From NCBI GenBank assembly GCA_020354025.1, contig CP070638.1, forward strand, positions 455,523-519,522: a stretch of DNA of 64,000 nucleotides. The letters are read 5' to 3'. The notes under the pieces are model-generated. The model did no database searches and was not told the DNA's origin. It was given only the letters and a program-made list of their open reading frames with translations. Position 1 is the first letter of the stretch. Every line of letters begins with the position of its first letter. The position numbers and the translations under genes are program-made. Below are positions 5,879-25,019 of the stretch, piece after piece. The stretch is from Fidelibacterota bacterium. Lineage in GTDB: Bacteria > Fidelibacterota > Marinisomatia > SCGC-AAA003-L08 > TS1B11.

Positions 5879-6637
5879 CTAGGACGGCCCTCGACTGAAA
5901 GAGGGGCGTATCAGATTATAGATTCTCTTCAGGACGAGCACCAGCCTGATGTAGGATCTCAGAAGCCAGGATCGTGAGGCGATGGCGGTGATGTAACGGG
6001 CAATGTCCCGTGCCGAGAGCATCTGTCGTCGGGAAGGTCTTCCGGGGTAGATGTCGAAGAACTCGGTATCTACCCGGAAGGGGAATATGGTGGATGTCTT
6101 TATGCCCAGCTTGCGAAGCTCCCATTTCGCTGCCTGCAGGAGGCCGGTGACACCGCGTTTGGAGGCACAATAGGCGGCGTAGCCGGGCGCCGAAAACAAA
6201 CCGGCTATGGATGCGACGGTAATGATGTGCCCCCTGACACTGCCGTGAACCATACTTATGGCAGCCATCCTGGTACACAAATAGACGCTGGTTAGGTTGG
6301 TGTGGATTACGGATAGCCATTCATCCATATCGGTATCGATCAGCCGGCTTTTTAGACCCCGGCCAGCGTTGTTCACCAGGATATCCACCCGTCCAAAACG
6401 TTTCTCCGTTTCCAGGAACAGCTGCTCCACATCAGCCTCCCGTGTAACGTCGGTCCGAACAGCAAGGCACCGGTCGCCAGAGGGATTGAGCTCCCCGCAA
6501 AGGGCCTGGAGTTTATCCAGACTTCGTGCGGCCAATACCAACCGGGTTCCTCTTCTGATAAATTCCCGAGCAACAGCCCGGCCGATTCCGCTGCTAGCAC
6601 CGGTGATGACGACCACCTTATCCTCAAGCGAGGTCAT
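5879..6637 (-). CDS. Short-chain dehydrogenase/reductase (SDR)
   Basis: A 252-residue classical SDR that oxidises or reduces a hydroxyl/keto group with NAD(P). Seen: the cofactor motif TGASSGIG at about residues 13-20, NNAG at about 90, the catalytic Ser in VASIAG and YCASK with the active-site Tyr and Lys. Unlike most cytosolic SDRs it ends in a long basic and hydrophobic tail (SYIRLVLVLKRIYNLIRPSF), which could bind a membrane and suggests a lipid substrate. The start lies 14 bases inside the upstream dehydratase gene, so the two are co-translated. The last codons run into the ghost of a redoxin gene, so the native C-terminus may have been altered by a deletion. Confidence 0.88.
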   Translation of the reverse strand: MTSLEDKVVVITGASSGIGRAVAREFIRRGTRLVLAARSLDKLQALCGELNPSGDRCLAVRTDVTREADVEQLFLETEKRFGRVDILVNNAGRGLKSRLIDTDMDEWLSVIHTNLTSVYLCTRMAAISMVHGSVRGHIITVASIAGLFSAPGYAAYCASKRGVTGLLQAAKWELRKLGIKTSTIFPFRVDTEFFDIYPGRPSRRQMLSARDIARYITAIASRSWLLRSYIRLVLVLKRIYNLIRPSFSRGPS

Positions 6638-7643
6638 TCTCCCTCATCCAGGCATAGGCATCGGCAATGGTCTGTTCAAAGCTGATAGCGGGGGACCAAC
6701 CGAAGCTGCTTTTGGCTCTTGAGTGATCAAAATAGCGGTAGTGGAAGGAGGAATCGAGTTCTGAAGCGGAGAGTTCCAGCCTGCTTCCGGTTATTGATTC
6801 CCCGGCCCGCAGCACCCAATACAGCAATGGCCTGAGAGCTCGCGGCAGGATCAGCCGAGGTGCCTTGCCATTGGTTTCTCCGGCTATAGTGTAAAATATT
6901 TCCTTAAAGGTCAGGTTCCAGCCCGAAAGTAGGAAGTTGCCGTCGCGCAGGTCATGTTTCAGCACTGCAACTATTCCTCTGGCCACGTCCCGGACGTCAG
7001 CCACATTGGTGCCTCCTGGCGGAATGACCGGAATTTTACCTTGGTCAACGGCCCGAATCATATTCGCAGTGTTCCGATAGTCCCCCGGACCGAACATAAG
7101 ACCCGGATACAGAATGACCGCTGCCAATCCGTCCCGGCGGCAGATTTCCACCTCCTGGTCGGCTAGGTGTTTGGTGAGCATGTAGTATTTATTTTTCCTC
7201 CGGGCGATGGCCCAATCGAACCGGAAGGTTTCATCCGCGGGACACAGGGGATCATTGTTATAGCCTAGCCCCGCCACGGAGCTGATATGGATGAACAGCG
7301 ACACGTCATGCTCCCGCGAGGCTTGGACAACATTGCGGGTTCCCTGTACATTGACTCGCTTCAGCGCCGCCTCATCCTTAAGCGACGGGGAGACCAGACC
7401 GGCAAGGTGCACGACCACCTCCATGCCTTGAAAAGCGTCCTGGATCGCTTGCATGTCACATATATCAAGCCCCAGACACACTTCCACTCTGTTGTCGGAA
7501 GAGAAATCGAAAAGGGCGAACGGATTAGACTGCAGATCGATGATCCGTAGGCATACCTCCGGGAACTCCTGGAGCAGGTCGCGGATGAGATGTTGTCCCA
7601 GAAATCCGCACCCACCAGTCAATAAGACTGTCTTTAAACTCAT
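6624..7643 (-). CDS. NAD-dependent epimerase/dehydratase (3-beta-HSD-like extended SDR)
   Basis: A 339-residue extended SDR. The N-terminus carries the Rossmann motif TGGCGFLGQHL; the catalytic YxxxK is YMLTK near residue 155, followed by a substrate-binding half with LYPGLMFGPGDYRNT. It resembles the group holding 3-beta-hydroxysteroid dehydrogenases and ceramide or flavonoid reductases rather than nucleotide-sugar epimerases, because no sugar-nucleotide signature is obvious. It is translated just before the SDR with a 14-base overlap, so both probably act on successive steps of one lipid or alcohol substrate. The exact substrate cannot be read from the sequence. Confidence 0.85.
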   Translation of the reverse strand: MSLKTVLLTGGCGFLGQHLIRDLLQEFPEVCLRIIDLQSNPFALFDFSSDNRVEVCLGLDICDMQAIQDAFQGMEVVVHLAGLVSPSLKDEAALKRVNVQGTRNVVQASREHDVSLFIHISSVAGLGYNNDPLCPADETFRFDWAIARRKNKYYMLTKHLADQEVEICRRDGLAAVILYPGLMFGPGDYRNTANMIRAVDQGKIPVIPPGGTNVADVRDVARGIVAVLKHDLRDGNFLLSGWNLTFKEIFYTIAGETNGKAPRLILPRALRPLLYWVLRAGESITGSRLELSASELDSSFHYRYFDHSRAKSSFGWSPAISFEQTIADAYAWMRENDLA

Positions 7644-8871: not shown

Positions 8872-9444
8872 ATGAGTGAATTCCCTCAACGTAAGTTCGA
8901 TATGGCTCCTATGCCTGACAAGCAAGTCCGTCTGGTTCCCCTCACCGAAGAGTGGATCGACCAGCTAATCCAGTGGCGATCCCGACCGGAGGCCCAGCAA
9001 CACCAGCCCATTACAGCCTTAAGCCGGGAGAGGCTTCACCAGTACCTACAATCACGCAATCCCGGGGAGCTGGCTGACTTGGTCAATCATGACTATATTT
9101 TCATTATCGAGGATGAGGGACAAGGAGAAGGTTTAGGTTGGATGACCCTGGAGATCATATCCCGTCTGCATGGCTTGGCCCGCATCGGATACACCATCGC
9201 CCGAGAGTACTGGGGACAGGGTTATGCCACCGCCGCGGTCAGGGCTATCGTCCGCTGGCTGTTCATCGATACGCCCATCGAGCGTATTGAGGCTGACTGT
9301 TCTGTGAGCAATCCAGCCTCCCGTCGGGTGCTAGAGAAGTGCGGGTTCCGATATATAGGCCTCAAGCGGAAGTATCTGGTCATCCAGGGACAGCGGGTGG
9401 ATCATTATTATTTTGAATTGTGTAAAAATGATATTCCAGTGTGA
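8872..9444 (+). CDS. GNAT-family N-acetyltransferase (RimJ/RimL-like)
   Basis: A 190-residue acetyltransferase. The acetyl-CoA loop is REYWGQGYATAAVRAIVRWLF and the downstream NPASRRVLEKCGFRYIGLKRK is the standard last part of RimJ/RimL-type GNAT proteins, which acetylate ribosomal protein N-termini, amino acids or antibiotics. The start at 8872 has no clear ribosome site; Met11 (8902) is an alternative. Its stop lies near a frame that opens into the next gene, but the next gene has its own ribosome site, so there is no fusion. Substrate unknown. Confidence 0.85.
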   Translation: MSEFPQRKFDMAPMPDKQVRLVPLTEEWIDQLIQWRSRPEAQQHQPITALSRERLHQYLQSRNPGELADLVNHDYIFIIEDEGQGEGLGWMTLEIISRLHGLARIGYTIAREYWGQGYATAAVRAIVRWLFIDTPIERIEADCSVSNPASRRVLEKCGFRYIGLKRKYLVIQGQRVDHYYFELCKNDIPV

Positions 9445-9491
9445 TAATATCGACAGCGGATTGTCTTTTATATGGAGTGAGGAGGTCCAGC

Positions 9492-10553
9492 ATGCCTAGC
9501 GCCTACACTAAGGCTCTGACTATACTCGCCGGGATCGGGCCAGAGTACAAAGACGGCCGCGTCAATACCGTACCCGCGGTAGCCGACGCCCTGGTTCTCC
9601 TGAACCGGTCTGATAGAGTAGTACCCTGGATTGAAGCTCGAATTGAGAGTCTGGATGCAATGCCCCCGGACACTAAACTTGTGACTCGCGACAACTGGGC
9701 TTCGGCGCTGGGGGATATTGCCCGGATCAGCGACTGGAGAGCCTTCTTCAAGCGGGAGTTGCGACAGGCTTCCTGGCAGGTAGTCCTGCGGGATTGGCTT
9801 CCCCGCCTGGCCCCGGGATTGGCTGGGGCGGCAGGGCATGGGCTCCTGCGTACAGGCCATGCCATCCGTAACATAGCACTTGAGGAATCGAATCTGCTTT
9901 ATGACGAACTGGCTGCCAGCCTGGGCTATTGGGCAGCCCGCTTCCTGAAGTTGCCGGGGATTATTGGAAGTGAATCAACGGGAAGCCTCAGACCCGCCGA
10001 AGCCCTCTCGCGTATCAAATGGCAGTATAAAGAGCGCCCGTCTCGGATCACAAATATCAGCGACGGATTAGAGGGTCTAACGGGATTCTCTCCATTCTCC
10101 GGCGTTGTCAACCTTGTAACAATTCCCGCTGAACCGCTGGAGCTCCTTTCCCAGATAACAGAGGCTATGGCCCGAGTGTTCCTGTCTAACAGCTATGATT
10201 CCGCTAAAGTGATCCCCTTTATTCACTCCCTCGTGGTTCCTGGAGCCTTGCGCTATGTCATACCGTACATCGAACCGGAAGGTATACCGATCCTGTTGCG
10301 CTACGGTTGGCAGTTCGCTGGGGCTCTATATGCCATCTATGGTCGGGTCAATCCAGTGGAGACCTGTGAGCGGCCAAGTGAGGACAAAGCACAGCTGGCT
10401 GACCAGGCGATCGCCACCGACAACGAATTCGCTATCATTTTCGCTTCAAGCTGCTTATGTGAATACAACCATAATCCCCGAGCTGCTTACCTGGCTGCCG
10501 CCCGGGAAGCGATAAAGCAGCTGGCACCCACAACGAGTGAGTCTAATATCTAA
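9492..10553 (+). CDS. Questin-oxidase-like protein (DUF4243)
   Basis: A 353-residue protein starting at ATG 9492 behind GAGGAGG. It shows the pattern of the questin-oxidase-like family (formerly DUF4243): a short N-terminal region, a central GAAGHGLLRTGHAIRNI segment where the His-Gly pair is conserved, and a C-terminal half with CEYNHNPRAAYLAAAREAI. Fungal members open the ring of the anthraquinone questin; the role of bacterial members is not established. Neighbours (GNAT enzyme upstream, M1 peptidase downstream) give no pathway. The assignment rests on recalled family motifs. Confidence 0.65.
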   Translation: MPSAYTKALTILAGIGPEYKDGRVNTVPAVADALVLLNRSDRVVPWIEARIESLDAMPPDTKLVTRDNWASALGDIARISDWRAFFKRELRQASWQVVLRDWLPRLAPGLAGAAGHGLLRTGHAIRNIALEESNLLYDELAASLGYWAARFLKLPGIIGSESTGSLRPAEALSRIKWQYKERPSRITNISDGLEGLTGFSPFSGVVNLVTIPAEPLELLSQITEAMARVFLSNSYDSAKVIPFIHSLVVPGALRYVIPYIEPEGIPILLRYGWQFAGALYAIYGRVNPVETCERPSEDKAQLADQAIATDNEFAIIFASSCLCEYNHNPRAAYLAAAREAIKQLAPTTSESNI

Positions 10554-10708: not shown

Positions 10709-13222
10709 ATGGATTTGAACCGAAGACATTTGCGTTGGCAACCTCGCCTATTTGTTCTATTTATCAGTCTAACTCTCCCAGCGTTAGCCCAGGACCGGGG
10801 ATTCAGCAATGAGCGTTCCATCCCACACGGCACCCGGGACCGCACCTACGATATCCAGCATTTGAAGCTTGATATTGCCTTCGACCATGCAGAGGGATTG
10901 GTCATGGGAAAAGCCACGACAACTCTCACGCCCATCAACGACGGACTTGTGCGGATAGTATTAGATGCAGTGGATTTGTCGATTGGATCGGTATCTCTAG
11001 CGATGGACGTGACGATTGAAGCTTCCTCAAGGGAAGGTAATAGACCGCTAATCTATGCCGTTGAGAATGGCCAGCTTATCATTGACTTGGACAAGCCCTA
11101 TTCAAGTGGCGAGTCCATTACGCTGCAAGTAACATACCACGCCCAGCCGCGGTTAGGGCTCTACTTCGTCCGGCCTGATGAGGCCTATCCTACCAAGCCA
11201 TGGCAGATCTGGAGCCAGGGCGAGATGGAAGAAAACCGTTATTGGTTCCCCTGCTATGATTCCCCTAATGACTTGATGACTACTGAAATGATAGTGACCG
11301 TACCTGACAGCCTGATGGCCATCTCCAACGGCGAGCTTGTGGAAATCAGACGGAATGAGCATGAGAGGACGATTACCTATCACTGGCGGGAAAATATCCC
11401 GCATGTAACCTATCTGGTATCGGTAATTGTCGGCAGGTTCCTGGAAGTCCGCGACGAATGGAACGGGATTCCTATTCTTTACTATGTGGAACACCGGGAT
11501 AGCAGTAAGGTGGAGCGGTCATTTGCCAGGACACCGGATATGATAGATTTCTTCTCGAAGATGATCGGGATTCGGTACCCTTATGAGAAATATGCCCAGA
11601 CTACTATCACTGACTTCATGTGGGGTGGGATGGAGAACATCAGTGCCACTACCCTGATGAAGGAAACTCTCCACGATGAGCGGGCCGGTCTGGACGTTTC
11701 CAGCGACGGGTTGGTAGCCCACGAACTGGTGCACCAGTGGTGGGGCGATTTACTCACCACCAAGAACTGGAATCATATATGGCTAAATGAGGCTTTCGCC
11801 ACTTACTTCGAAGCGCTTTATGTTGAGTATGATAAGGGGCCGCGGGAGTTTATCCTGGAGCTGGAAACAAACCGCCAAGCCTATTTCAAGGAGGATGCCT
11901 ACCAGTATCGGCGTCCCATCGTCACTAACCGATATGAAAATCCCGAGCAGATGTTTGACCGTCACACCTATGAGAAGGGATCGCTGGTCCTGCATATGCT
12001 CCGCAATCTGCTAGGAAATGAGCTGTGGTGGAAGGCCATCCGGCACTATGCGAGGACCTATGCAGGACAAGCGGTGGAAACCAATGACTTCAAGCAAGCC
12101 ATTGAGGATGCTACGGGGCGGTCTCTGGAATGGTTCTTCGACCAATGGGTCTACCATGGTGGACATCCCGAGTACGATGTTTCCTGGGGATGGGACCGGA
12201 GAAAACAGGCCGTGGCGCTGGAGGTGAAGCAGGTACAAGGGGTGGGCGTGGTGACTCCACTCTTCCGGATGCCCATCGAGGTAGCCGTAACAGGTGATTC
12301 CAGTACAGAGATTTTCACCATCCAGGTTGATAAAGCCGAGGAAATTTTCTACCTTCCGGTACCAGCCAAACCCTTGCGAGTGGAATTCGATCCCGATGGT
12401 CAGGTCCTGAAAGAGCTCACTTTTAAAAAGCATAGGAAAGAGGTTCTTAATCAGCTGGTCAATGCCGGTGACGTGGGGCGTATGCGGGCGGCTCAGTGGT
12501 TAGGGATATACGACTATCGGGATATAACCGAGGCCTTGGGCACGGCCCTCCGCCAGGATCCCTTCCGCGGCGTCCGGGGTGCGGCTGCCTGGGCCTTGGG
12601 CGAGATCAAAACAAAGGCTGCACGGGATGCGTTACTGCTAGGTCTGCAAGACGAACACGCCCATGTGCGGCGGGCGGCTGTAACTGCCCTGGGTAATTAT
12701 GTCGACGACTCGCAGGTGGCCGTAGCTCTTGAAAATGTGTTCCGTAGCGACAGCAGCTATTATGCCCGGGCCGAGGCGGTGAAGAGCATCACTAGGCTTG
12801 GTGCGATCGATGCATATGACATCTGCCTGGAAGCGCTGGGAGTAGCCTCATACAAGGAGGTCATACGCTGCGCGGCGTTGTCAGGATTAGTTACGCTGAA
12901 GGATCCCCGCGGAGTGGATCACGCTCTGGCGTTGGCGGAATATGGTCAACCTTTCCAGGTCCGCGTCGAAGCTGTCTCGGCCATGGCCGGATTGGGAGTC
13001 CACATTCCCAAGCGTAAGAAAGAAATCCGTGAGCGGCTGATAGCCCTGCTAGAAGACCCGCATTTCCGTGTCAAGACTGCTGTCATTAGAGCACTGGGTC
13101 AGCTGGGCGACCCTAAAGCCCTTAAAGCCCTAGAGGAAAGCCTTGAACGGGAACCGCATTTTCGTCACCGGGAAGCGGCCAGGGAAGTAATACGGGAAAT
13201 TAGAATTAAAGGGGAGAGGTAG
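10709..13222 (+). CDS. M1-family aminopeptidase with C-terminal HEAT repeats, exported
   Basis: An 837-residue exported zinc metallopeptidase. Signal peptide to about residue 27 (LFVLFISLTLPALAQ). The M1 core follows: the substrate N-terminus motif GGMEN at residues 306-310 and the zinc site HELVH at 338-342 with the third ligand Glu361 in WLNEAFATY, exact H-E-x2-H-x18-E spacing. After the catalytic domain, residues about 590-835 form a run of HEAT-like helical repeats (VRGAAAWALGEIKTKAARDAL, VRRAAVTALGNYVDDSQVAVAL). The layout is that of the longer bacterial M1 enzymes that trim peptides in the periplasm or outside. All catalytic residues are present. Confidence 0.92.
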   Translation: MDLNRRHLRWQPRLFVLFISLTLPALAQDRGFSNERSIPHGTRDRTYDIQHLKLDIAFDHAEGLVMGKATTTLTPINDGLVRIVLDAVDLSIGSVSLAMDVTIEASSREGNRPLIYAVENGQLIIDLDKPYSSGESITLQVTYHAQPRLGLYFVRPDEAYPTKPWQIWSQGEMEENRYWFPCYDSPNDLMTTEMIVTVPDSLMAISNGELVEIRRNEHERTITYHWRENIPHVTYLVSVIVGRFLEVRDEWNGIPILYYVEHRDSSKVERSFARTPDMIDFFSKMIGIRYPYEKYAQTTITDFMWGGMENISATTLMKETLHDERAGLDVSSDGLVAHELVHQWWGDLLTTKNWNHIWLNEAFATYFEALYVEYDKGPREFILELETNRQAYFKEDAYQYRRPIVTNRYENPEQMFDRHTYEKGSLVLHMLRNLLGNELWWKAIRHYARTYAGQAVETNDFKQAIEDATGRSLEWFFDQWVYHGGHPEYDVSWGWDRRKQAVALEVKQVQGVGVVTPLFRMPIEVAVTGDSSTEIFTIQVDKAEEIFYLPVPAKPLRVEFDPDGQVLKELTFKKHRKEVLNQLVNAGDVGRMRAAQWLGIYDYRDITEALGTALRQDPFRGVRGAAAWALGEIKTKAARDALLLGLQDEHAHVRRAAVTALGNYVDDSQVAVALENVFRSDSSYYARAEAVKSITRLGAIDAYDICLEALGVASYKEVIRCAALSGLVTLKDPRGVDHALALAEYGQPFQVRVEAVSAMAGLGVHIPKRKKEIRERLIALLEDPHFRVKTAVIRALGQLGDPKALKALEESLEREPHFRHREAAREVIREIRIKGER

Positions 13223-13325
13223 CCTGCTTGCCTGAAGTGGCTGAATGCAGGACAAGGGTATACAGGCTTTTTCCCCCAGCCTACTATCGTGTAAATTGTA
13301 TATAGTTATCTGGAAGGGAGAGAGT

Positions 13326-14459
13326 GTGCAAGTTCTGAAAGTATCTACTCCAGCCCACCTGCGTCGATTCATAGACTTTCCGTATCGTCTCTACCAGGGA
13401 CATCCCTATTGTGTTCCCCCTCTGCGCCTGGATATGAAAACCCAGCTGTCACCTGCGAGGCACCCCTTCTATCGCCACTCTTCCCACGCCTTTTTCCTGG
13501 TCACTTACAATGGGCGCGATTTGGGCCGTATGGCTATCTTTCATAATCGCAGGCATAACGAGGTCTACCAAGTTAATGTAGGCATGTTTGGCTACCTGGA
13601 TATGGTGGACGACGTAGAGGTGACTTCGGCTCTCATGGAATCGGCTCGCAGCTGGCTGAAGCAGTTTGGCGTTACCAGTATCCAGGGGCCATATAATCCC
13701 GATATCAACGGCTCCATCGGTATTCTAATGGACGCTTATGAAGCTCCCCCCATGGTTCTCATGCCCTACAATTATCCCTATTATAAAGAGCATCTAGAAA
13801 ATCTGGATTTCAGCAAGTTAAAGGACATGTCAGCTTATGAGATGTATGCATCCAAGGGGATTCCCCAACGGCTTATCGATCTTGTTGGGAAAATGGAAGA
13901 AAGAGGAGGTTATACAATCAGGAAGGTCGATATGAAGCGTTTCTGGGACGAAGTGGAGCTAGTGAAGGAGATATACAACCAGGCCTGGGCGGAAAACTGG
14001 GGAGCCTTATGGATGGATGACGAGGAATACACCCATATGGCCAAAGACCTCAAGCTACTTATTGATCCCGACCTTGTATACTTAGCCGAGATGGAAGGCA
14101 AGATAGTGGGTGTCTCCATCTCCCTGCCGAATATCAACGAGGCCTTAGCCCACTTACCTAATGGACGTCTTTTTCCTCTGGGACTATTTAGACTCCTGTG
14201 GTACAAGCGGCGCATTTCGTCCCTGCGCATCCTTATTCTGGGCGTTCTGCAGCCCTATCGGAGGTTTGGCATTGACGCCGCCCTCTATCTGCGTACCTTT
14301 ACCAATGGGATAGCCAAGGGCTACCTAACGGGGGAAGCGTCCTGGATTCTGGAGGATAACGCTTCCATGATCAACGCCCTGCTGAAAATGGGTGCCCGGA
14401 AATCCAAGACCTATCGCATTTATAGCCGTTCTATTACAATGAGTGAAAGTGATTCATAA
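13326..14459 (+). CDS. Large GNAT-like N-acyltransferase
   Basis: Start chosen at GTG 13326, five bases after AAGGGAG, giving 377 residues; the open frame reaches back to 13245 without a ribosome site. The N-terminal signature (FIDFPYRLYQGHPYCVPPLRLD, then GRMAIFHNRRHNE) and central IQGPYNPDINGS are typical of a family of double-domain GNAT-like proteins that includes E. coli YghO and, as I recall, the Caulobacter ceramide synthase. Such enzymes transfer an acyl chain to an amine. It is followed at 51 bases by an epimerase-type dehydrogenase and a PAP2-type membrane enzyme, a context that supports a lipid product. Substrate is inference. Confidence 0.75.
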   Translation: MQVLKVSTPAHLRRFIDFPYRLYQGHPYCVPPLRLDMKTQLSPARHPFYRHSSHAFFLVTYNGRDLGRMAIFHNRRHNEVYQVNVGMFGYLDMVDDVEVTSALMESARSWLKQFGVTSIQGPYNPDINGSIGILMDAYEAPPMVLMPYNYPYYKEHLENLDFSKLKDMSAYEMYASKGIPQRLIDLVGKMEERGGYTIRKVDMKRFWDEVELVKEIYNQAWAENWGALWMDDEEYTHMAKDLKLLIDPDLVYLAEMEGKIVGVSISLPNINEALAHLPNGRLFPLGLFRLLWYKRRISSLRILILGVLQPYRRFGIDAALYLRTFTNGIAKGYLTGEASWILEDNASMINALLKMGARKSKTYRIYSRSITMSESDS

Positions 14460-14510
14460 CCAGAGGATATTACTCCCCTTGGTTGTACTCGGCACCGGTA
14501 ATTCATACAC

Positions 14511-15491
14511 ATGCATATTTTCCTGACGGGCTCATCGGGTTTCGTCGGTAAGAACCTGATTCCCTATCTACTGGACCGGGGGTGTCGGTTGACCTGCCTG
14601 TTGCGGGATCCTGAGCGTCTACCAGAGGAGCTGCGGTCTCAGGTAACCGTGGTGATTGGTGATTTGACCTGCCTCGCTAAGGAAGTGATTCAGGCACTGG
14701 GCAGTGCGGAGGCTGTGGTTCATATGGCCGGACAGTTATGGGGCCGCACTTACGAGGATTACGACCGGGTCAACCGTGAGGGAACCGAGGCCTTAATCCA
14801 AGCGGTGAAGCAGCCCAATGGTCCCTTGCGGCGGTTTGTGTACCTGAGCTCTATTGCTGCGGCAGGACCAGCCCGCATCGGTCAGCCTCTGGAGGAAACC
14901 TCCCCTGCGGCTCCTATTTCATGGTATGGCCGGACTAAGTTAGCGGGGGAGCGGGCACTGGCGGGAGCCGTTTTCCCCTGGACGGTGATTCGCGCGCCTG
15001 CCGCATATGGGCCCCAGGACAAGGCCACGCTGACCTTTTTCCGGCTGGTAGCTCACCACATTCGTCCCGATATCAAATGGGGCCGCCCGGAACATTCCAT
15101 TATCCATGTTCAGGACGTTTGTCAGGCTATTTGGTTGGTACTAACCAGTGAAACCAGGCTGCAATCAACCTATTTCATAAACGACGGCCAGGCGATACAC
15201 ACGCTACGGGAAGTGATGACACTGGTAGTAGAAAGTGTCGGCAAGTGGGTCGTCCCTGTGCCCATTCCGGGTGGACTGGTGCTAGTGGCGGAGAGCTTGC
15301 TGGCTCTGGGGCAGCGAATCGGGCTGACACCCTCCCGGCTGACACCTGATAAACTGCGCGAACTGAGACGACCTGCCTGGACCTGCAGTGCGGAACTCAT
15401 CGCCGAAAATCTGGGTTTTAAAGCCTTGGTGCCCCTGGATCAAGGTATATCTGAAACGGCGACCTGGTATCGGGCTAGAGGTTGGCTATGA
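14511..15491 (+). CDS. NAD-dependent epimerase/dehydratase family reductase
   Basis: A 326-residue extended SDR with TGSSGFVGKNL at residues 6-16 for cofactor binding, the Ser of YLSSIAAAGP and the catalytic YGRTK at about 143-147. Its C-terminal part is short and lacks nucleotide-sugar signatures, similar to the dehydrogenase type that reduces 3-keto-ceramide in Caulobacter (CerR), although other ketone or alcohol substrates are possible. Its TGA stop overlaps the ATG of the following PAP2 gene as ATGA, so both are co-translated. Confidence 0.85.
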   Translation: MHIFLTGSSGFVGKNLIPYLLDRGCRLTCLLRDPERLPEELRSQVTVVIGDLTCLAKEVIQALGSAEAVVHMAGQLWGRTYEDYDRVNREGTEALIQAVKQPNGPLRRFVYLSSIAAAGPARIGQPLEETSPAAPISWYGRTKLAGERALAGAVFPWTVIRAPAAYGPQDKATLTFFRLVAHHIRPDIKWGRPEHSIIHVQDVCQAIWLVLTSETRLQSTYFINDGQAIHTLREVMTLVVESVGKWVVPVPIPGGLVLVAESLLALGQRIGLTPSRLTPDKLRELRRPAWTCSAELIAENLGFKALVPLDQGISETATWYRARGWL

Positions 15492-16414
15492 AACAGCTGC
15501 GCTATCACTTCGACCGGCTTATCTTGTGGTACCTGGGAGGGATATTTGCCATCACTTTTGTGGGGTCCTATTTTGGACTGATATACCTGTTCGCTGCCCT
15601 GACTCATCTGATAATGATCTTCATGGTGGTACGCATTACGAACGTCTCATCCCAAACCGGTCCACGGGCATGGCTGCGTTGGCTCTATCCCCTGCTGCTG
15701 TTGCTGCCCTTGCATTATGAGATTGAACTGGTAGCATCCGTATTTCACGGTGGGGTAGTATTTGATGACGTAGTTAAAGTCTGGGACCGCTGGTTGTTCG
15801 GGGGGCATCCCCACCGATACCTGGCGGACCAGCTGCCCGGCCCGTTGTGGCGCGAGTTTTTCCACCTCATGTATATAACATATTTTATCATAGTCATAGG
15901 TGGGTACTTATATGCCCGGCGGCGCGGCCAAGTGTCTGAAGAGCGGGGGGAAAGAGATGTTCCGTCGGATTTTCCCAGGTACGCCTTTGTGTTCCTGGGC
16001 ACGTTTCTCACCTACATGCTGATCTTTATCCTGTTCCCGGTGACAGGTCCTTTGGACGATCGGTTCCTCCGCTTCGAGGGCTATGGCTTTCTGGGACCAT
16101 TGATTGACCTGCTGTACGCTGCCGGCGACAGTGCCGGCGGTGCCTTTCCCAGCTCCCATATTGGTGAGGCCGTAGTGGTCTATCTACTTCTACGCCCGCG
16201 ATCTCCAGTGATACGTACTATTTCGATTGCCTTGATAACGGGACTTACCGTCTCTACAGTATACGGTTCCTTCCATTATGCCATCGACGCCGTAGCGGGG
16301 CTACTTACCGGGATCCTGTTCTATATTTTCTGGAACTGGTTCTACGGGCGATTAAAAAAGGAACCTGTTGCCAACGAGGAGGCATCAGGAAGCCAGGTAC
16401 AATCTGAAGTCTGA
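15488..16414 (+). CDS. PAP2-superfamily integral membrane phosphatase/phosphotransferase
   Basis: A 308-residue membrane protein starting at ATG 15488 inside the stop of the epimerase gene. Six or so hydrophobic helices are visible. The PAP2 active-site motifs are GGAFPSSHIGEAV with His224 and YGSFHYAIDAVAG with His263 and Asp267; the first motif (KxxxxxxRP) is degenerate. The order and spacing resemble the PAP2_3 group, which contains inositol-phosphorylceramide and related sphingolipid synthases as well as lipid phosphatases. Together with the acyltransferase and the epimerase upstream this suggests headgroup transfer or removal on a lipid. It converges with the methyltransferase at 16419 with four bases between stops. 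Confidence 0.85.
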   Translation: MKQLRYHFDRLILWYLGGIFAITFVGSYFGLIYLFAALTHLIMIFMVVRITNVSSQTGPRAWLRWLYPLLLLLPLHYEIELVASVFHGGVVFDDVVKVWDRWLFGGHPHRYLADQLPGPLWREFFHLMYITYFIIVIGGYLYARRRGQVSEERGERDVPSDFPRYAFVFLGTFLTYMLIFILFPVTGPLDDRFLRFEGYGFLGPLIDLLYAAGDSAGGAFPSSHIGEAVVVYLLLRPRSPVIRTISIALITGLTVSTVYGSFHYAIDAVAGLLTGILFYIFWNWFYGRLKKEPVANEEASGSQVQSEV

Positions 16415-16418
16415 CAAT

Positions 16419-17270
16419 CTATGATGGGTAGGAGAACAGGAACCGCATGTATTTCAGGTGCTGTTCGTACATAGCGGGATCACACCGCTTCAAGCGTTCT
16501 GTGCGGACATCCTCCCAAAACTGCAGGGGCTCTTTAAAGAGCCACCTGATTATCCCAGCCTTAAAAGTGGCTAAAGCCCCGAAAATATGCTCGAGCATTT
16601 CGATGATGGGCGGATAATAATCCTCCCAGATCATTTTTTCGATTTCCGCCGTTGGCAAGACGTCTTTGGTGATATCCACGGACTTAATCAGCTCCAAGCC
16701 ATAGTGCCGGGCTCGATCGAGGTAGACATCTTCAATATTGATGATCTTTTTATACATCTCCGAATCGCTTTTCCTGAAATTGCCGGAAACAAGTAGATAA
16801 CCGCCCTTATTCAGGTGCTGGATAGTCTGCTCGAGACCAATATCGGTATCGAAATAGTTCTGGGACTCGCACATCAAGACCAGGTCAAATTTCCGAGGGC
16901 TTTGGAAAGCCTCGAAAGTGGAGTGGTGAAAGGTGATGTCCCCGTTCCCGATAACATGGGCCTCGATGTACTTCTTATGGATTATGTCGGGGGACAGGGC
17001 GGTGACGCTGTGCCCTCTATCGGCCAGGGCCAGGGACACCTCACCGAGACCACAGCCCACATCCAGGACCGTCTCGATCCCATCGGGAATAAGGTCAATG
17101 AGGGTGTCGGTATAGCGCTGCTGCGCCCTCCGCAGGTTCTCCAGCGAAAAACTCTCACCTTCCTTCCAGCAGCCGTAGTGTAATGACTTAAGCTTCAGGA
17201 ACTCGGTCATGAAGAAAAGCTCCAGATCAAGATGGTGATCGGGATTGATAAGACTTTTATCCTTGCTCAT
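16419..17270 (-). CDS. Class I SAM-dependent methyltransferase
   Basis: A 283-residue methyltransferase. The SAM-binding motif is [21 protein letters not shown] at about residues 66-86, followed by the acidic post-I position (ALSPD) and motif [11 protein letters not shown]. The N-terminus LKSLHYGCW is shared with methyltransferases acting on small lipid-like molecules (tocopherol or sterol methyltransferase and cyclopropane synthase relatives). The C-terminal third is rich in aromatic and basic residues. It is transcribed toward the PAP2 gene. The substrate cannot be given. Confidence 0.85.
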
Positions 17271-18240: not shown

Positions 18241-21200
18241 TTACTTTAATAGCAGCATCTTCACCGTCTTGGTATACTCAGGGATTACCAGCCGGGCGAA
18301 GTAGATGCCTGATGCAAGGTCCCGGCCTGCTTGGTCACGACCAGCCCACAGCACCTGATGATACCCCGCACCTAGCTGTTCCTGCCTTAATCTAGTGACT
18401 TCGCGGCCCAGGATATCGTAGACCACCAGGTAGACCTTGGTGGCCTTTGGCAGGTCAAAACGGATAGTTGTTATAGGATTAAACGGATTCGGATAGTTCT
18501 GGTGGAGGGCAAATTCCCTGGGCATCAGGTTCTCTACCTCAATCTGTAGCTGCCCTGTCTCAAAGGGACCGCCATCCATGCCCGTTAACGTGTAGTCCAG
18601 GATAAGCGGCTGGAGCTCGTGGACCTTGGGCTTGAGGCGGAGGGTAGCCACTGGCAGATCATCAACCTTGCCTGGCTCCAGCGTCCCCAGGCCAGCCAGG
18701 GCAAAGAGGGCCTGGCTGCTGTCCGGGCCGACCTGGGTAAGCAGCGGCGTAGCCTTAAAGAACTGCCGCAGGTAGCCTCCATCGGCCACCCCCATTAATT
18801 GAAGACCGCCTGAACCGTACGAGATAAATCCGTCCACCATCATCAGGTTTTCGGCCTCAGCCACAAACATATCGACGGTGATAAAACCATCCCACTGGTA
18901 CAGGTCCTCAGGTATCCGCTGGACCAGCCTGATGGTAGTATTCTCCGAGATCACCTTAGCCAATACGGAGATAGACCTGGCAAAACCGTTGTGCGCAAAG
19001 GACCAGTTCCACATCATGGCGAAGACGGTCAGGTCCTCGAAATCGATCACGCCGTCTGGTTGAGGTAGCAGGTCCGGCACAATCCCAGCAGCAGGACCGA
19101 TCTCATGGGTCAAGTCCTGCGGTACAGAATTCCAGGCTGCGGCAAATTCGGCTAGGTCATCGGTGGAGATAGCCAGATTACCAGTGTAGTCGCCTGGATA
19201 GTAGATGACGGTGAGACCAGTGAGGGTGTCGCCAACACCGGGGTCGTTATCGGTAGGGACGACCTTCAGTTGTACATCCGTATGCTTACCGGTCAGATCG
19301 GCAAAGGCGAGCCAATCAATGGTGCCAGTGTAACCGGCTGGGGCGATCTTGCCGCGGGCATAATCCAGGTGGCCTTCCTGCCACGATGCCCCCTGGTCAA
19401 GGGAGTAGGACGCGGACAGGGTCAGGCTGTCACCTTCAGCATCAGTCAGCGTATAGTGAATCGAAACCCGGGATATTATGGTATCATTTATTGCTCCTGT
19501 CACCACCGTGGGGGGATCGTTGTTATCCAGGTGAAAATCTTGCGTTTCGATGGCAAGCCCGGGATTGGCATCGTGCGGCGTGATACGGAATCTTATGGCC
19601 GTTTTGTCCACTCCTCCCAGATCGATACCCGATTGCCAAATGAACGATCCGCTATATTCTGCAGGCAACAGATTTGTAGTTTTTCCTTCAATTGACGCAA
19701 GTGCCCAATTCTGCCCGGAATCTTCTGAATAATCGCCTACAATGCTCAAGGTATCGTTCTCATCGTCTGCAAGCGTATATGCAATCTCTATATCCCCGGA
19801 CTGCTCTGTGTCAAAGTTGGATATTGCGGTGGCAAAGGGCACACACAGCTGGTCAATCAGTATGGTGATGGTATCCATCGCTCCTTGATCGTTGTCATAA
19901 GGAATGATGCGGAAATAGTAATATCCCATTCCTTGCGGTTGATCAGGAGCAGAGTTCCAGATCAGGCTACCTGCATAAGCCGATGAGGTAATGCCTGACG
20001 TGTTGCCAGTGATAGTGGCCGGATGCCAGACTGCTGATTTGGGCGCGAGATACTCGCATTGCACCCTCAATGTATCATTTTCCGCATCGGACAGTTGATA
20101 GCCGACAGCGATATCTCCCCGATATTCTCCTTCAGCCACCGGTGTCAGGACAGCAGTCGGTATCCGGTTGTTGTCCAGATGGAAGGCTGGGGTTGTGTAA
20201 GCCCGCCCCTCACCAGTCTGGTCATAGGGTGTGATCTTGAAACGAACCGTGGTCAGATCTATATCGGGCAGGTTGACGTAGGAGTCCCAGAGGAGGGTGC
20301 CCTGATATTTGTCGGGGCCTAAGCCCGTGGTATCGCCAATGATAGTGGCTAGGTGCCAGGTAGCACCGTCGTCGTCGGAGTACTCGCAGAGGAGACTAGT
20401 TGTATTGCTATCAGGGTTTGAGATGATGTAGGGGATGGTGAGGGAGTCGGAGTGCTCGGCCTGAGTGTCCAGTGTGAAGCGGGCGGAGAAAATGTCTTGG
20501 TTCAGGAGAACTGCAAGTGAATTTTCCATGTTGTTTACTGCTGCGATATCGAAATCACCATCCTGATCCCAATCACCTACGGTAAAAGAGCTAATATTCT
20601 CGTATAGATGTAAAGTTGACTCCCAAGCGAAAGCGCCGTTTCCATTGTTGCAGAAAAAGGAAATAGTATCCGCATTCGCATAAGCGACGACTAAATCAAC
20701 AGCTCCATCACCATCCCAGTCACCATAAGACATGGCAACAGGTTCATTTCCCACATCAATAGCATCAATAGGTGCTGCTGATGGAAATATCCCATCCCCA
20801 TTATTCCTTAAAAACGAAAGCGCGCTTACCGCACCCCCGGTAAGAGCTGTCAAATCAAGGTCGCCGTCACTATCAGCATCAACAGGGGCTAGAAAAATAG
20901 GCTTTGGCCCTAAAACTGCAGAAGAGTATGATTGGAGGAAATTCCCCTCACCATCGTTAAAGATTATTGACACCGAATCATCATAGTTCCCTACAGCTAA
21001 ATCCTTATCCCCATCAATATCCCAATCACCCGAAGTAATAGACCAGTGATCACTGCCTACATAAAGCAATAAGGTTTCGTAGAAAGTACCTGATCCTTCG
21101 TTCGTTAAAATTGAAATCAAGCTGGCTCCAGTAGATTGAGCAACAGCTAGATCAAGATCACCATCGCCTTCCCAATCACCGACAGTAATCGATGTGGGGC

Positions 21201-24183
21201 CATGAGTTGTAATACTAGGGCTTGAGGCTAATAAAAAAGTGCCAGTTCCGTTGTTTTTAAATACTGACACGGTACTTGAGGCTTCGTCTATGACCACTAA
21301 ATCAATGTCATTATCTGCATCCCAATCACCGGAGGTAATAGAGTAATTACCCACTCCATAGCCAGTTTGCAGGAATGCAGTTCGTACAAATATACCTGAG
21401 CCCATGTTCGTTACTATTGATATAACATCTCCGTCTGGTGAATCGTTATTTACTGTAGCTAGATCCAGGTCACCGTCTTGATCCCAATCTCCTGTGATAA
21501 TGCTAATTGGACTACTCCCTACGGATGAGATTATTTCTGAGCTAAATGTTCCAGATCCGCCAATTAACTCAATACAGAAACCCCAGCTAAATGCAGAAGG
21601 CAATCCATCTCCCACCTGTGTCTGTACGCCCGTCGTCAGCGTCACGCTCACTTGCTCGCCAACCTTGAAAAGTCTATCAGGCGTGAAAGTGGCTATATTC
21701 CCAACCGTATTATAGCTGCCGCTCAGCTTACCTGTGTAGCTGCCATGCACCACGAAGGTGTTGGCATTGATGGTGGCTGGATTCATATCCACCCCGAAAG
21801 TGACGGAGATGGGGCAGTCCAGTGGGACATTGAGGGCGTTCTGGGCGGGGTAGGTGGAAATAATGGGATTGGCTATTCCTGAGAGGTAAACCTTGGTTTC
21901 TGGATTCTGGGGATCGTTGCTGAAAATGGTGAGGCTGTCGTTGTAGGTCACCATGTCGGTAGGGGTGAAGGTGACAATCACTGTGGCGCTGTCGCCGGGA
22001 GGCACTGAGAAGTTGTTGGGAATATGCATAAAAACTGGACTGGATACTGCAATGTTAGTGACCTGGAGGGTACTTTCCATGCCGTGATTGTAGACGTTGA
22101 ATGTGAGGGAATCTGTACTGCCTATTTTGGTGGCACTAAAGGCGAGCGTATCAGGGAAGAGGGCAATGTCGGCGGAACGGTTGCGGTTGAAATAAATGGC
22201 TCCAGGGCCAACTAAATCCAGGTCACCGTCGCCGTCCCAATCAGCTGATGTGTTCCCGCCGGAATTTGTTGTTAATGTAAATAGACCATTACCGTCATTA
22301 GTAAAAATCAGGCTACTCGTCACAATATCGATATCATTATCGTTGTCCCAATCACCTGTAGCATACCCGCCCGGAAAAGTGTCCACAGTTTGAGTTACAG
22401 TCTCCGTAAATATACCATTACCATCATTTTGCAGGATCGAATAAGACCCATCTCCTGATTGACCCCAATTCCCTGTAATCAGATCTATATCACCATCATT
22501 ATCCCAGTCACCTGAAGCAATAGCCCGAGGGTAATATGGAAGTGGTGCGACCGAGACTGCCGGAGTAGGCGCGAATGAACCCCTGCCATTATTCAGCAGG
22601 ATGGAGATTGAATGGCCTTCATCATTTGCTATTGCCATGTCTAGATCACCGTCAATATCCCAATCGGCAACAGCAATGGCTGTTGGGTAGGCCCCAACAC
22701 TTTGTCTACTGGATTCAACAAATGTGCCAACACCATTATTTAGTAGAATAGACACTGTGTTTTCGGTTTGATTGGCGACAGCGAAATCTTCATATCCGTC
22801 CCCATTCCAATCTCCATGGTTGATTGCCAGGGGATTGGATCCTACACTCAGGTCAGCAGCTGGCGTAAAGCCAGCAAATCCATCATTTAATGAAATAGAG
22901 ATTGAATTCAAGGAATAATTGACCCACGCAAGATCCAAATCGCCATCATTATCCCAATCACCTGCGATATTCGGGCTTGTTACCGAATTGGCATTTGCGA
23001 AATCGCCGAATCCATCATTTAGGAACACAGTCCCAGACGAAATCAGATCTATATCCCCATCTAGATCCCAATCACCGGGTATGCCTCCGCCAATACCAGG
23101 CAATGAAGACATAGTGAAAATCCCAGTCCCTTCCAGCACCTCGCTGGTAAAGTCCCATACCATGGGACCAGCTAGCGTATCCCCTGCCGCACAGGTAATA
23201 CCAGTCGTCAGAGTGACATTCACCTGTTCGTCTACCTTGAAAGGACTGGTGGGGGTGAAGGTAGCCGTCTTAGTATCGCTGTCGTAAGCATAGGCGCCAC
23301 CCAGCTTGCCGGTGTAGCTGCCATGGACGATGAAGGTGTTCTCGTTAATAGTGGCGGGATTCATATCTACGTCAAAGGTAATAGAGATGGGACTGTCCAG
23401 AGGGACATTGAGGGCGTTCTGGGCGGGACTGACGGCCACGTTGGTGGTGCCGATGCCGCTTAAACACACGCTAACTTCGGGGCTTCGGGGATCGTTGGTA
23501 TATATCGTCAGGCTGTCTTGATATGTCATCATGTCATCAGGGGTGAACATGATGGCAATGGCCCCGCTATCGCCGGGCGTTACATTCAATGAAGTTGTGC
23601 TGACGGAAAACGCATCTCCAGTGACCGTGACGCTGTCTACTACAAGCAGGCTGTCAAAGGAAATGCTATAAACTTTAAACCAGAGGGTATCCGTATCTCC
23701 GATGGCAGTGGGACAGGAAACAATTGAATCGGTATATGCCCAAATCGATGATACAGTAACAACAAAATCTACATCACCACCGAATCCACCTAAACCGAGC
23801 CAATCGCTGGTAACCAGTCTTGTCCAAAGTTCCGTGGTGCCGCCGCTAATAGATACCCATTGGTCGGCGTAGGCGCTGTAACTCCAGAGGATATTAAAGT
23901 CGGCATCATATACCGTAAAAATATCAGTCCACCAATCTATCTCCTGAAAGACATGAAATCGCGTTATAATTCCTCCAGCCGGCGGTGCCCAAGGACCTAT
24001 TAAGGTGTTTTGGTAATTCCCCATCCAAGGATTATGCAAAGCTCCCGTCGTCGAGACAGTGGTGGTAGTAACGACCGAATCGAGCCTCACATAAGATCCG
24101 CCAGATTGAGCGAAAAGTAAGATCGAAGGAGCGGATAGACAGACCAAAAAGAGTGAGCAACAAATAGCTCGTGGTAGTTTCAT
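18241..24183 (-). CDS. Giant FG-GAP/VCBS-repeat surface protein with sorting tail
   Basis: A 1980-residue exported protein. ATG 24183 shares one base with the TGA stop of the preceding gene; a GTG one codon earlier is possible. Order of parts: signal peptide; a beta-sandwich region; a choice-of-anchor-D-like domain (FTPDDMMTYQDSLTIYTNDP); a Big_5-type Ig domain (VSPAQNALNVPLDSPISITF); about eight FG-GAP/VCBS repeats (GDWNGDGYEDFAVAN type, calcium-binding DxDxDG); a second anchor-D and Big_5 pair; a second series of FG-GAP repeats; four related roughly 90-residue beta repeats (VQCEYLAPKSAVWHPATI type); a dockerin-like EF-hand pair (GDYTGNLAISTDDLAEFAAAW, DGVIDFEDLTVFAMMW); a cohesin-like region; and the sorting tail ending KMLLLK. 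It would be an adhesive or scaffold protein on the cell surface. Confidence 0.9.
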   Translation of the reverse strand: MKLPRAICCSLFLVCLSAPSILLFAQSGGSYVRLDSVVTTTTVSTTGALHNPWMGNYQNTLIGPWAPPAGGIITRFHVFQEIDWWTDIFTVYDADFNILWSYSAYADQWVSISGGTTELWTRLVTSDWLGLGGFGGDVDFVVTVSSIWAYTDSIVSCPTAIGDTDTLWFKVYSISFDSLLVVDSVTVTGDAFSVSTTSLNVTPGDSGAIAIMFTPDDMMTYQDSLTIYTNDPRSPEVSVCLSGIGTTNVAVSPAQNALNVPLDSPISITFDVDMNPATINENTFIVHGSYTGKLGGAYAYDSDTKTATFTPTSPFKVDEQVNVTLTTGITCAAGDTLAGPMVWDFTSEVLEGTGIFTMSSLPGIGGGIPGDWDLDGDIDLISSGTVFLNDGFGDFANANSVTSPNIAGDWDNDGDLDLAWVNYSLNSISISLNDGFAGFTPAADLSVGSNPLAINHGDWNGDGYEDFAVANQTENTVSILLNNGVGTFVESSRQSVGAYPTAIAVADWDIDGDLDMAIANDEGHSISILLNNGRGSFAPTPAVSVAPLPYYPRAIASGDWDNDGDIDLITGNWGQSGDGSYSILQNDGNGIFTETVTQTVDTFPGGYATGDWDNDNDIDIVTSSLIFTNDGNGLFTLTTNSGGNTSADWDGDGDLDLVGPGAIYFNRNRSADIALFPDTLAFSATKIGSTDSLTFNVYNHGMESTLQVTNIAVSSPVFMHIPNNFSVPPGDSATVIVTFTPTDMVTYNDSLTIFSNDPQNPETKVYLSGIANPIISTYPAQNALNVPLDCPISVTFGVDMNPATINANTFVVHGSYTGKLSGSYNTVGNIATFTPDRLFKVGEQVSVTLTTGVQTQVGDGLPSAFSWGFCIELIGGSGTFSSEIISSVGSSPISIITGDWDQDGDLDLATVNNDSPDGDVISIVTNMGSGIFVRTAFLQTGYGVGNYSITSGDWDADNDIDLVVIDEASSTVSVFKNNGTGTFLLASSPSITTHGPTSITVGDWEGDGDLDLAVAQSTGASLISILTNEGSGTFYETLLLYVGSDHWSITSGDWDIDGDKDLAVGNYDDSVSIIFNDGEGNFLQSYSSAVLGPKPIFLAPVDADSDGDLDLTALTGGAVSALSFLRNNGDGIFPSAAPIDAIDVGNEPVAMSYGDWDGDGAVDLVVAYANADTISFFCNNGNGAFAWESTLHLYENISSFTVGDWDQDGDFDIAAVNNMENSLAVLLNQDIFSARFTLDTQAEHSDSLTIPYIISNPDSNTTSLLCEYSDDDGATWHLATIIGDTTGLGPDKYQGTLLWDSYVNLPDIDLTTVRFKITPYDQTGEGRAYTTPAFHLDNNRIPTAVLTPVAEGEYRGDIAVGYQLSDAENDTLRVQCEYLAPKSAVWHPATITGNTSGITSSAYAGSLIWNSAPDQPQGMGYYYFRIIPYDNDQGAMDTITILIDQLCVPFATAISNFDTEQSGDIEIAYTLADDENDTLSIVGDYSEDSGQNWALASIEGKTTNLLPAEYSGSFIWQSGIDLGGVDKTAIRFRITPHDANPGLAIETQDFHLDNNDPPTVVTGAINDTIISRVSIHYTLTDAEGDSLTLSASYSLDQGASWQEGHLDYARGKIAPAGYTGTIDWLAFADLTGKHTDVQLKVVPTDNDPGVGDTLTGLTVIYYPGDYTGNLAISTDDLAEFAAAWNSVPQDLTHEIGPAAGIVPDLLPQPDGVIDFEDLTVFAMMWNWSFAHNGFARSISVLAKVISENTTIRLVQRIPEDLYQWDGFITVDMFVAEAENLMMVDGFISYGSGGLQLMGVADGGYLRQFFKATPLLTQVGPDSSQALFALAGLGTLEPGKVDDLPVATLRLKPKVHELQPLILDYTLTGMDGGPFETGQLQIEVENLMPREFALHQNYPNPFNPITTIRFDLPKATKVYLVVYDILGREVTRLRQEQLGAGYHQVLWAGRDQAGRDLASGIYFARLVIPEYTKTVKMLLLK

Positions 24184-25019
24184 CACCGCACCTCCACGGC
24201 GGCATCTACCAGTTCGTTAATTGTGATGCTCTGGTTATCCGGGTCTCTTAAAATGCTCGCTGTCGTATTGGAGATTTGGCTGTTGCCACCGCCGATTGCC
24301 GTAAATGTCAGCTGGGCAATAGCCCCCGTCCCGCTCACTCCCGGCGGATTGCCCGTGGCAGTCGCCACCTCGATAGTGGCAGTACCAGTGCTGTTGTCAT
24401 ATCGATCGAAGGGGATCACTGTACCACCGTTGGCTTTGAGCAGGGAGCGGGTATCCTCGTAGACTTCAATCTGGCTCACCTGCAGCTTGGTGGGATCAAA
24501 TTCCAGTACGGCCTTGAGAGCAAAGATATTTTCGACCTCCTCCAGCATTACTTCCACGGTGAATGTGCTGTCCTGGTCTATTTCCTGATGGCGGGGAGAT
24601 AGCCATAAAGCGGGGCCCTGGATGTCGTTAACCACGAAGGAGACGGCAGCAGCCGAATCAGTTTCAATTCCACTGGCATAGCGCCCTTTCACCTGGAAGT
24701 CATGGGTTCCTTCGTCCAGCCAGGGGCAGGTTAGCGTTGTGTCATCCGCCCATGCACTCCACTCGCCGATATCCAACTGGTAGGTGAACTCCATATCGGG
24801 TTGGTTGCCCCGCCAGACCAACTCCACATGGCAGGTATTGAGAACTGCACCCTCGGAAGGACAGGAGACCAGGGTCACCTTCGGAGGTACAAAGGAGGGA
24901 TCATCGGGGATGATGGGATTGTCAAACTCGGGCTCGCTGGGCAGCTTCGAACAACCAAAGCCACCCAGCATTAGGGCCAGGGTCGTCAACAGGGTGATCC
25001 TGTGGATGCTCCGCGCCAT
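24183..25019 (-). CDS. Lipoprotein with cohesin-like domain
   Basis: A 278-residue protein starting at ATG 25019, directly after the stop of the preceding gene. The signal peptide ends LMLGGFGCSKLPSEPE, a probable lipobox with Cys as lipid anchor. Residues about 45-125 form an Ig/fibronectin-like sandwich; the C-terminal half (FTVEVMLEEVENIFALKAVL, then FDPTKLQVSQIEV and GAIAQLTFTAI) is a cohesin-like fold of the kind that binds dockerins or forms protein-protein contacts in exported FCB proteins. Placed between the PEGA/CsgG-like gene and the giant protein that bears a dockerin-like segment, it may anchor that protein at the outer membrane. Confidence 0.78.
   Translation of the reverse strand: MARSIHRITLLTTLALMLGGFGCSKLPSEPEFDNPIIPDDPSFVPPKVTLVSCPSEGAVLNTCHVELVWRGNQPDMEFTYQLDIGEWSAWADDTTLTCPWLDEGTHDFQVKGRYASGIETDSAAAVSFVVNDIQGPALWLSPRHQEIDQDSTFTVEVMLEEVENIFALKAVLEFDPTKLQVSQIEVYEDTRSLLKANGGTVIPFDRYDNSTGTATIEVATATGNPPGVSGTGAIAQLTFTAIGGGNSQISNTTASILRDPDNQSITINELVDAAVEVR

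Follow-up and report, generated by a model that had tools for sequence, protein, structure and literature searches.

A three-gene operon candidate for late steps of phosphosphingolipid synthesis in a Fidelibacterota bacterium

Three consecutive genes of a Fidelibacterota bacterium, encoding an acyltransferase, an epimerase-type dehydrogenase and a PAP2_3-like membrane enzyme, raise the question as to whether this organism makes sphingolipids and, if so, how the steps are shared between this locus and the rest of the genome. The genes lie at 13326-16414 of the window, the 64,000-nucleotide stretch of DNA that was analysed, which corresponds to positions 455523-519522 of the single contig (CP070638.1) of the 3.40 Mb, 95% complete host genome (GCA_020354025.1). 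We propose, with a probability of roughly 0.7, that these genes form a small operon serving the later stages of phosphosphingolipid synthesis in bacteria. In this scheme, the acyltransferase would attach the second acyl chain to the amino group of 3-ketosphinganine or sphinganine, the long-chain base; reduction of the keto group by the epimerase-like enzyme would yield dihydroceramide; and the PAP2_3 enzyme would transfer a phospho-headgroup from a glycerophospholipid to the ceramide, by His-His-Asp chemistry as in inositol phosphorylceramide (IPC) synthase. The long-chain base itself would be supplied by a divergent enzyme resembling serine palmitoyltransferase (SPT), encoded 169 kb away. We infer the substrates, the sequence of the steps, the headgroup donor and a connection with the distant enzyme from observed homology, from the order of the genes, and from fold predictions and active-site residues. 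Relative to the overall figure, we are more confident of the first two genes and less so of the donor and the distant synthase.

All three open reading frames (ORFs) are present, consecutive and on the plus strand: a candidate bacterial ceramide synthase of the bCerS/YghO family, a tandem-GNAT N-acyltransferase (13326..14459); a candidate CerR-type ceramide reductase of the NAD(P)-dependent epimerase/dehydratase family (14511..15491); and a PAP2_3 membrane protein that is a candidate IPC synthase/Aur1-type ceramide headgroup transferase (15488..16414). The initial annotation had given these coordinates and an ATGA overlap correctly, as the letters themselves show: the ATG at 15488 of the PAP2_3 gene overlaps the TGA at 15489-15491 of the epimerase-like gene (15488..15491, plus strand). 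The acyltransferase start at 13326 is a GTG preceded by a good ribosome-binding site, GGAAGGGAGAGAGT, and several relatives also start near this position; the longest ORF opens at an ATG at 13245. A consensus scan of 13000-16600 detected no terminator-like sites, while a promoter scan yielded 3 sites against 3.3 expected.

This order was compared in 31 loci from 31 other genomes of the phylum, out of the 39 others with an acyltransferase match of at least 200 bits. An epimerase gene lies on the same strand within 4.5 kb of the acyltransferase in 23 of the 31, a PAP2 gene in 17, and both accompany it in 16, with several loci being cut by contig ends. The order of the trio is thus beyond chance, since it is kept in other genomes of the phylum. 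Variations occur within the phylum: the same-genus genome G110 has two tandem acyltransferase copies, each 69% identical to that of the window (L087:5703-8186), two operons harbour a CDP-alcohol phosphatidyltransferase gene between acyltransferase and reductase (L092:8925-9923 and L101:3884-4756), and in two relatives of the same class the trio is followed by class-V aminotransferase and NAD-dependent DNA ligase genes (L097:3172-7138 and L126:4954-8891).

For the first gene, membership of the YghO/bacterial ceramide synthase family, with long-chain-base N-acylation as its predicted activity, fits the sequence comparisons best. A tblastn search against plasmids returned 44 records, 41 of which covered at least 80% of the query. 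Among them is E. coli YghO, which is 33.7% identical along 92% of the acyltransferase (E 2e-54), a full-length family homology. YghO (ECD_02850) of E. coli B has been counted among the aca genes, N-acyltransferase homologues of Caulobacter CC_1154 needed for dihydroceramide (PMC9386255). In a FastTree phylogeny of 129 relatives, the window acyltransferase and five family members form one clade, nested in a larger clade that also contains 55 SPT-linked members. Grouping with unrelated GNAT enzymes, which the initial annotation had named as evidence against a ceramide role, was therefore not found; the protein groups instead with YghO and its relatives from SPT loci, and its description as YghO-like is borne out. 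The AlphaFold2 model (predicted local distance difference test, pLDDT, 92.1) has a tandem-GNAT fold, which is common to many other acyltransferases besides bCerS/YghO; its best structure match is MAB_4324 (7q3a; Z 23.7, root-mean-square deviation (rmsd) 3.4 over 304 residues), with N-myristoyltransferases lower at Z about 15. The protein (ACYLTRANSFERASE) matched no Pfam family over its cut-off and no NCBIfam family. FemAB_like (PF04339), considered as a family for it, has no match anywhere in the genome, and the best phmmer hit among solved structures, an acyl-CoA synthetase at E 0.021, was taken as chance.

The company kept by such acyltransferases in named genomes is informative. Named loci were obtained from one peptide-pattern scan, from which the best 80 of at least 592 matched stretches were fetched with up to 8 kb per side. 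An SPT of at least 400 bits lies within the fetched locus in 52 of these 80, a share inflated by the scan, which favours SPT-linked members because the alignment from which its pattern was derived already included such members; the loci are also often short, so that misses include cut contigs. A laxer SPT threshold of 250 bits gives 54 of 80, adding L154 (267 bits) and L206 (344 bits), and the stricter count was used because the SPT profile also scores KBL and BioF proteins at 296-370 bits. A reductase match occurs in 48 of the best 80 loci, and SPT, reductase and PAP2 (at least 80 bits) all accompany the acyltransferase in 17, as read by eye from the rows; PAP2 matches were counted from 30 bits, and five at 32 to 52 bits were excluded before this count. 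Three further loci have a PAP2 match above 80 bits and no SPT in the locus. Nine of the 17 have all four genes on one strand in the sequence SPT, acyltransferase, reductase, PAP2 (L146, L150, L151, L153, L155, L157, L160, L167 and L211), eight of them titled Gemmatimonadetes or Gemmatimonadales and one 'Bacterium HR33'. In individual records, the neighbours of E. coli yghO encode a fatty acyl-AMP ligase, an acyl carrier protein, and proteins of the SPT type and the epimerase family; Rubrobacter and Streptomyces have the acyltransferase between SPT-type and epimerase-family genes in compact operons; Nonomuraea unites acyltransferase, reductase and PAP2 at one site with an SPT that is divided between two ORFs; and in Roseomonas and Diaphorobacter the acyltransferase is surrounded by genes for LptF/G permeases and nucleotidyltransferases, and an SPT-type gene lies several kilobases away.

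Profiles were built solely from these named SPT loci (54 acyltransferases, 43 reductases and 12 PAP2 proteins), excluding every sequence of the window and every other sampled sequence of the phylum. Among the 217 ORFs of the window, they place the trio genes first, at 467, 294 and 130 bits, respectively. The acyltransferase profile has the trio gene as its sole match in the window, the trio protein scoring above E. coli YghO (374 bits). The PAP2 profile likewise has a single match in the window.

The second gene fits the role of ceramide reductase partner of the acyltransferase, as judged from sequence. It matches PF01370 at 96.1 bits and carries TGSSGFVG and YGRTK motifs; on the reductase profile it exceeds the E. 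coli partner (213 bits) and the two outsiders that were compared, the product of window 6624-7643 (112 bits) and RfaD (76 bits). Its earlier description as an epimerase-type dehydrogenase thus holds, and it lies nearer to the reductases of SPT loci than do these two other epimerases. Caulobacter CerR is reported to be periplasmic (PMC11087976); in the gene studied here, the Rossmann motif begins at residue 6 of the ORF. The hopanoid-associated sugar epimerase HpnA was considered for this gene and rejected (TIGR03466, 83.8 bits against a cut-off of 367.65).

The third gene matches PF14378 (PAP2_3) at 40.2 bits, with a cut-off of 27, and the model of its 308-residue product (pLDDT 86.3) suggests something more specific than a PAP2-like protein, namely a candidate transferase of the IPC synthase/Aur1 type. 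Its top structure match is 9vj4, an IPC synthase with ceramide (Z 18.6, rmsd 4.3, 260 residues), followed by 9ivc, Aur1 of the Aur1-Kei1 complex (Z 18.0, rmsd 7.2, 273 residues); human sphingomyelin synthase-related protein scores Z 10.9. The suggestion that a PAP2-like enzyme might add a headgroup is therefore backed by structure, two IPC synthases being the best matches over nearly the full length, although a shared fold is no proof of function. H224, H263 and D267 are invariant in 21 related sequences, and the PSxH and HYxxD motifs occur in 21 of 21. The phosphatase C1 motif KX6RP is present in 0 of the 21, and we take His-His-Asp without KX6RP to be a hallmark of headgroup transferases. 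PF07994 inositol-phosphate synthase has no match in the genome (control matches were obtained in 5 of 14 genomes, including a Bacteroides), which makes home-made inositol unlikely as the headgroup; this option was set aside, and phosphatidylethanolamine or phosphatidylglycerol seems a likelier donor than home-made phosphatidylinositol. A pair of CDP-alcohol phosphatidyltransferase genes at genome positions 2673725-2674672 was also considered, and was set aside as lying, by eye, among surface-polysaccharide genes.

Where the long-chain base might come from is a question for the rest of the genome. Two alpha-oxoamine synthases were found, at genome positions 64007-65092 and 298661-299968, both outside the window, in agreement with the earlier statement that the window holds no SPT. 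One of them is clearly a glycine C-acetyltransferase (681 bits, cut-off 493). The other (298658-299989, minus strand), some 169 kb away from the trio, is a divergent SPT-like synthase; among solved structures it is closest to SPTs, at 228 bits, with other synthases scoring almost as high. It has the lysine motif ATFSKS, with GTFSKS in 6 of the 8 members of its clade, where KBL has TLGKA and BioF TFGKG; GTFSKS has been described as characteristic of SPT (PMC10196870). The TGSxxLNG segment is likewise retained, in contrast to the KBL (two) and BioF (one) sequences used for comparison, and the enzyme agrees with canonical SPT at the His, Asp, His, Lys and Arg positions. The highest single NCBIfam score was for bioF (311 bits, cut-off 426), and this candidate was rejected: a biotin role is unlikely because the best biotin synthase match in the genome reaches only 44.5 against a cut-off of 225. 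Genes near the synthase encode a short-chain dehydrogenase/reductase (SDR), a lipid kinase of the YegS type and a 232-aa protein (297956-298654). A relative of this last gene adjoins the synthase in 12 of 14 relatives' loci, and the other two end within 288 bases of the synthase (the pair spans G000:C1:297956-299989, equal to L015:14957-16990); its first reading by eye, as acetoacetate-decarboxylase-like, was unsupported by sequence searches of Pfam, NCBIfam and the PDB.

The distribution of these genes was followed in 199 genomes drawn from the phylum, that of the window included. An acyltransferase match of at least 200 bits is found in 40 of them, canonical SPT (at least 380 bits) in 44 and the divergent type in 18, and no genome (0 of 199) has both synthase types. 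Among the 40 acyltransferase genomes, 21 have canonical SPT, nine the divergent type and 10 neither, so that either type is present in 30 of 40 genomes with the acyltransferase as against 32 of 159 without it (Fisher test, 1.4e-10, with kinship ignored). Within the family of the window's genome, G099 has acyltransferase and divergent synthase, while its genus mate G107 has neither. No SPT of at least 400 bits occurs in any of the 31 fetched trio-type loci of the phylum; separation of SPT and trio is therefore usual here. Taken together, these data lend moderate support to a link between the SPT-like enzyme and the trio.

A number of results weigh against the proposal, beyond the enrichment of the named-locus scan and the uncorrected relatedness in the Fisher test. 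Canonical SPT, at a threshold of at least 380 bits, is absent from the genome, and the divergent enzyme scores 302, 279 and 276 bits against NCBIfam SPT cut-offs of 500, 640 and 670. On the SPT profile it even falls below glycine C-acetyltransferase (334 vs 366), and in a quick tree it belongs to a separate deep branch of 8 rows (SH-like approximate likelihood ratio test, SH-aLRT, 100) outside the SPT clade, the SPT reference rows forming one side of a branch with SH-aLRT 94. We call it SPT-like rather than SPT because it lies outside that clade and below all three cut-offs. The initial annotation had regarded the absence of any SPT as refuting a ceramide role; the genome does hold an SPT-like enzyme, albeit a divergent one beyond the canonical clade. 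Furthermore, neither SPT type is present in 10 of the 40 acyltransferase genomes, two of which (G109 and G165) are of the window's class, and the acyltransferase match is absent from nine of the 18 genomes with the divergent enzyme. In the sister class (L138, L139, L140 and L142), the acyltransferase that adjoins canonical SPT belongs to a distant subfamily (28-29% identity with E. coli YghO), the trio type lying elsewhere in the same genomes; with the two types at separate sites, they may differ in their job. A search of the genome for a dedicated acyl-ACP (acyl carrier protein) synthetase of the E. coli type did not find one; its two hits, of 37.5 and 22 bits, are partial and fall in the same 610-aa frame. 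Finally, the PAP2_3 gene reaches 21.9 bits, in its C-terminal part only, against a cut-off of 480 for phosphoinositol dihydroceramide synthase (NF052609).

The position of the synthase outside the canonical clade leads to the alternative that fares best, namely that the trio acts on another amino-lipid, the synthase accepting alanine, glycine or cysteate to give a deoxy-sphingoid or sulfonolipid-like backbone. A Tyr occupies the Asn52 position in 8 of 8 members of the SPT-like clade, where every canonical row printed (35 of 41) has Asn, and the small gene that adjoins the synthase in most relatives' loci would also suit a changed activity. The retained TFSKS motif and TGSxxLNG segment, which the KBL and BioF sequences compared do not share, argue for serine palmitoyltransferase chemistry, as do the best solved relatives, with the reservation that other synthases come close; we consider this alternative unlikely.

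A second alternative accepts that the first two genes make ceramide and regards the PAP2_3 protein as a lipid phosphatase, acting for example on ceramide-phosphate or phosphatidylglycerol-phosphate. The PAP2 core is shared with such enzymes: the best phosphatase match of the model is the B. subtilis phosphatidylglycerolphosphate phosphatase (Z 14.4 over 175 residues), followed by LpxE (14.0 over 160), both in the C-terminal part, and the YegS-type lipid kinase gene near the SPT-like gene makes a phosphorylated lipid plausible. The IPC synthases, however, match over nearly the full length and about 4 Z units higher, and no family member has KX6RP, which leaves a phosphatase rather improbable. 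Least of all do we favour a grouping without any sphingolipid role, in which a GNAT enzyme, a sugar epimerase and a PAP2 phosphatase would be neighbours by chance or would serve envelope polysaccharide functions: epimerase-like and PAP2 genes are common and the genome is without canonical SPT, but the gene order kept across the phylum, the four-gene SPT clusters of named genomes and the low HpnA score make this very improbable.

Two further suggestions concerned neighbouring genes that might act on the same lipid. For the SDR pair at 5879-7643 the case is weak: G072, one of four other loci of the family, has homologues of the pair some 6 kb away from the trio, whereas the epimerase-type member of the window pair, tried as the ceramide reductase, was rejected at 112 bits as against 294 for the trio gene. 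In G072 these homologues (L088:15033-16842) include an epimerase-type gene split over two ORFs. Similarly weak is the case for the methyltransferase: in two of the four family loci a homologue of it adjoins the trio in the opposite orientation, and it has no other tie to the lipid. This gene (16419-17270) encodes a methyltransferase dependent on S-adenosylmethionine and is convergent with the trio; the homologues in G110 and G072 (50-53% identity) occupy the same place, and the stretches retrieved from G195 and G099 show none. Elsewhere in the window, 9441-10553 encodes a Questin_oxidase-like protein (PF14027, 35.4 bits, cut-off 27), and 18241-24186 a secreted-looking protein of 1981 aa with repeated GDWDxDGDxD-like segments and a C-terminal end of the FALHQNYPNPFNP type.

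How does the proposed phosphosphingolipid operon compare with known systems? With the Caulobacter/E. coli B cluster (spt, acpR, aasR, cerR, bcerS/yghO) it shares a homologous N-acyltransferase and reductase, but the trio does not stand beside genes for SPT, carrier protein or acyl-ACP synthetase. Caulobacter has headgroup genes of its own (PMC11324152), while the trio ends instead with a PAP2_3 transferase-like gene. The operons of Gemmatimonadota, Rubrobacter and Streptomyces contain the same acyltransferase and reductase and, in part, the PAP2 gene; unlike the trio-type loci of this phylum, they include a canonical SPT. The PAP2_3 model resembles Aur1 in fold by structure comparison, and the known cases, Aur1 and Bacteroides BT_1522, both act on ceramide (PMC9246714). 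The trio gene differs from BT_1522, a phosphoinositol dihydroceramide synthase, in lying far below the NF052609 cut-off in a genome with no PF07994 match, and from both in being encoded with ceramide genes, not inositol genes. The SPT-like enzyme, in turn, shares with canonical bacterial SPT its family, the TFSKS motif and the His/Asp/His/Lys/Arg positions, and departs from it in its separate deep clade, longer N-terminus, Tyr at the Asn52 position and 232-aa neighbour.

Genes for ceramide synthesis in bacteria are known, and headgroup genes have been described in Caulobacter, where the route is by phosphoglycerate (PMC10331486), and in Bacteroides, where it is by inositol (PMC9246714). What would be new, as far as sequences and models indicate, is a candidate headgroup transferase built into the gene set, together with a divergent SPT candidate elsewhere in the genome. 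A ceramide operon with a PAP2_3/Aur1-type gene was not found in the titles and abstract openings listed by searches of an open-licence library; full texts and other papers may describe one. Tentatively, the locus may represent a further bacterial layout, in which ceramide synthase, reductase and an Aur1-fold transferase share one operon, use a non-inositol donor and are fed, in this class, by a replacement SPT lineage, perhaps with a small partner protein. The missing canonical SPT offers a direct test case for replacement by a divergent synthase lineage, and bears on surveys in which sphingolipid makers are recognised by SPT clade (PMC11334938). The kind of sphingolipid proposed here is better known from plants, fungi and animals. 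If the assignment holds, an IPC-synthase-type transferase inside a ceramide operon would constitute a further headgroup route and could serve directly as a genetic marker of phosphosphingolipid producers among uncultured phyla.

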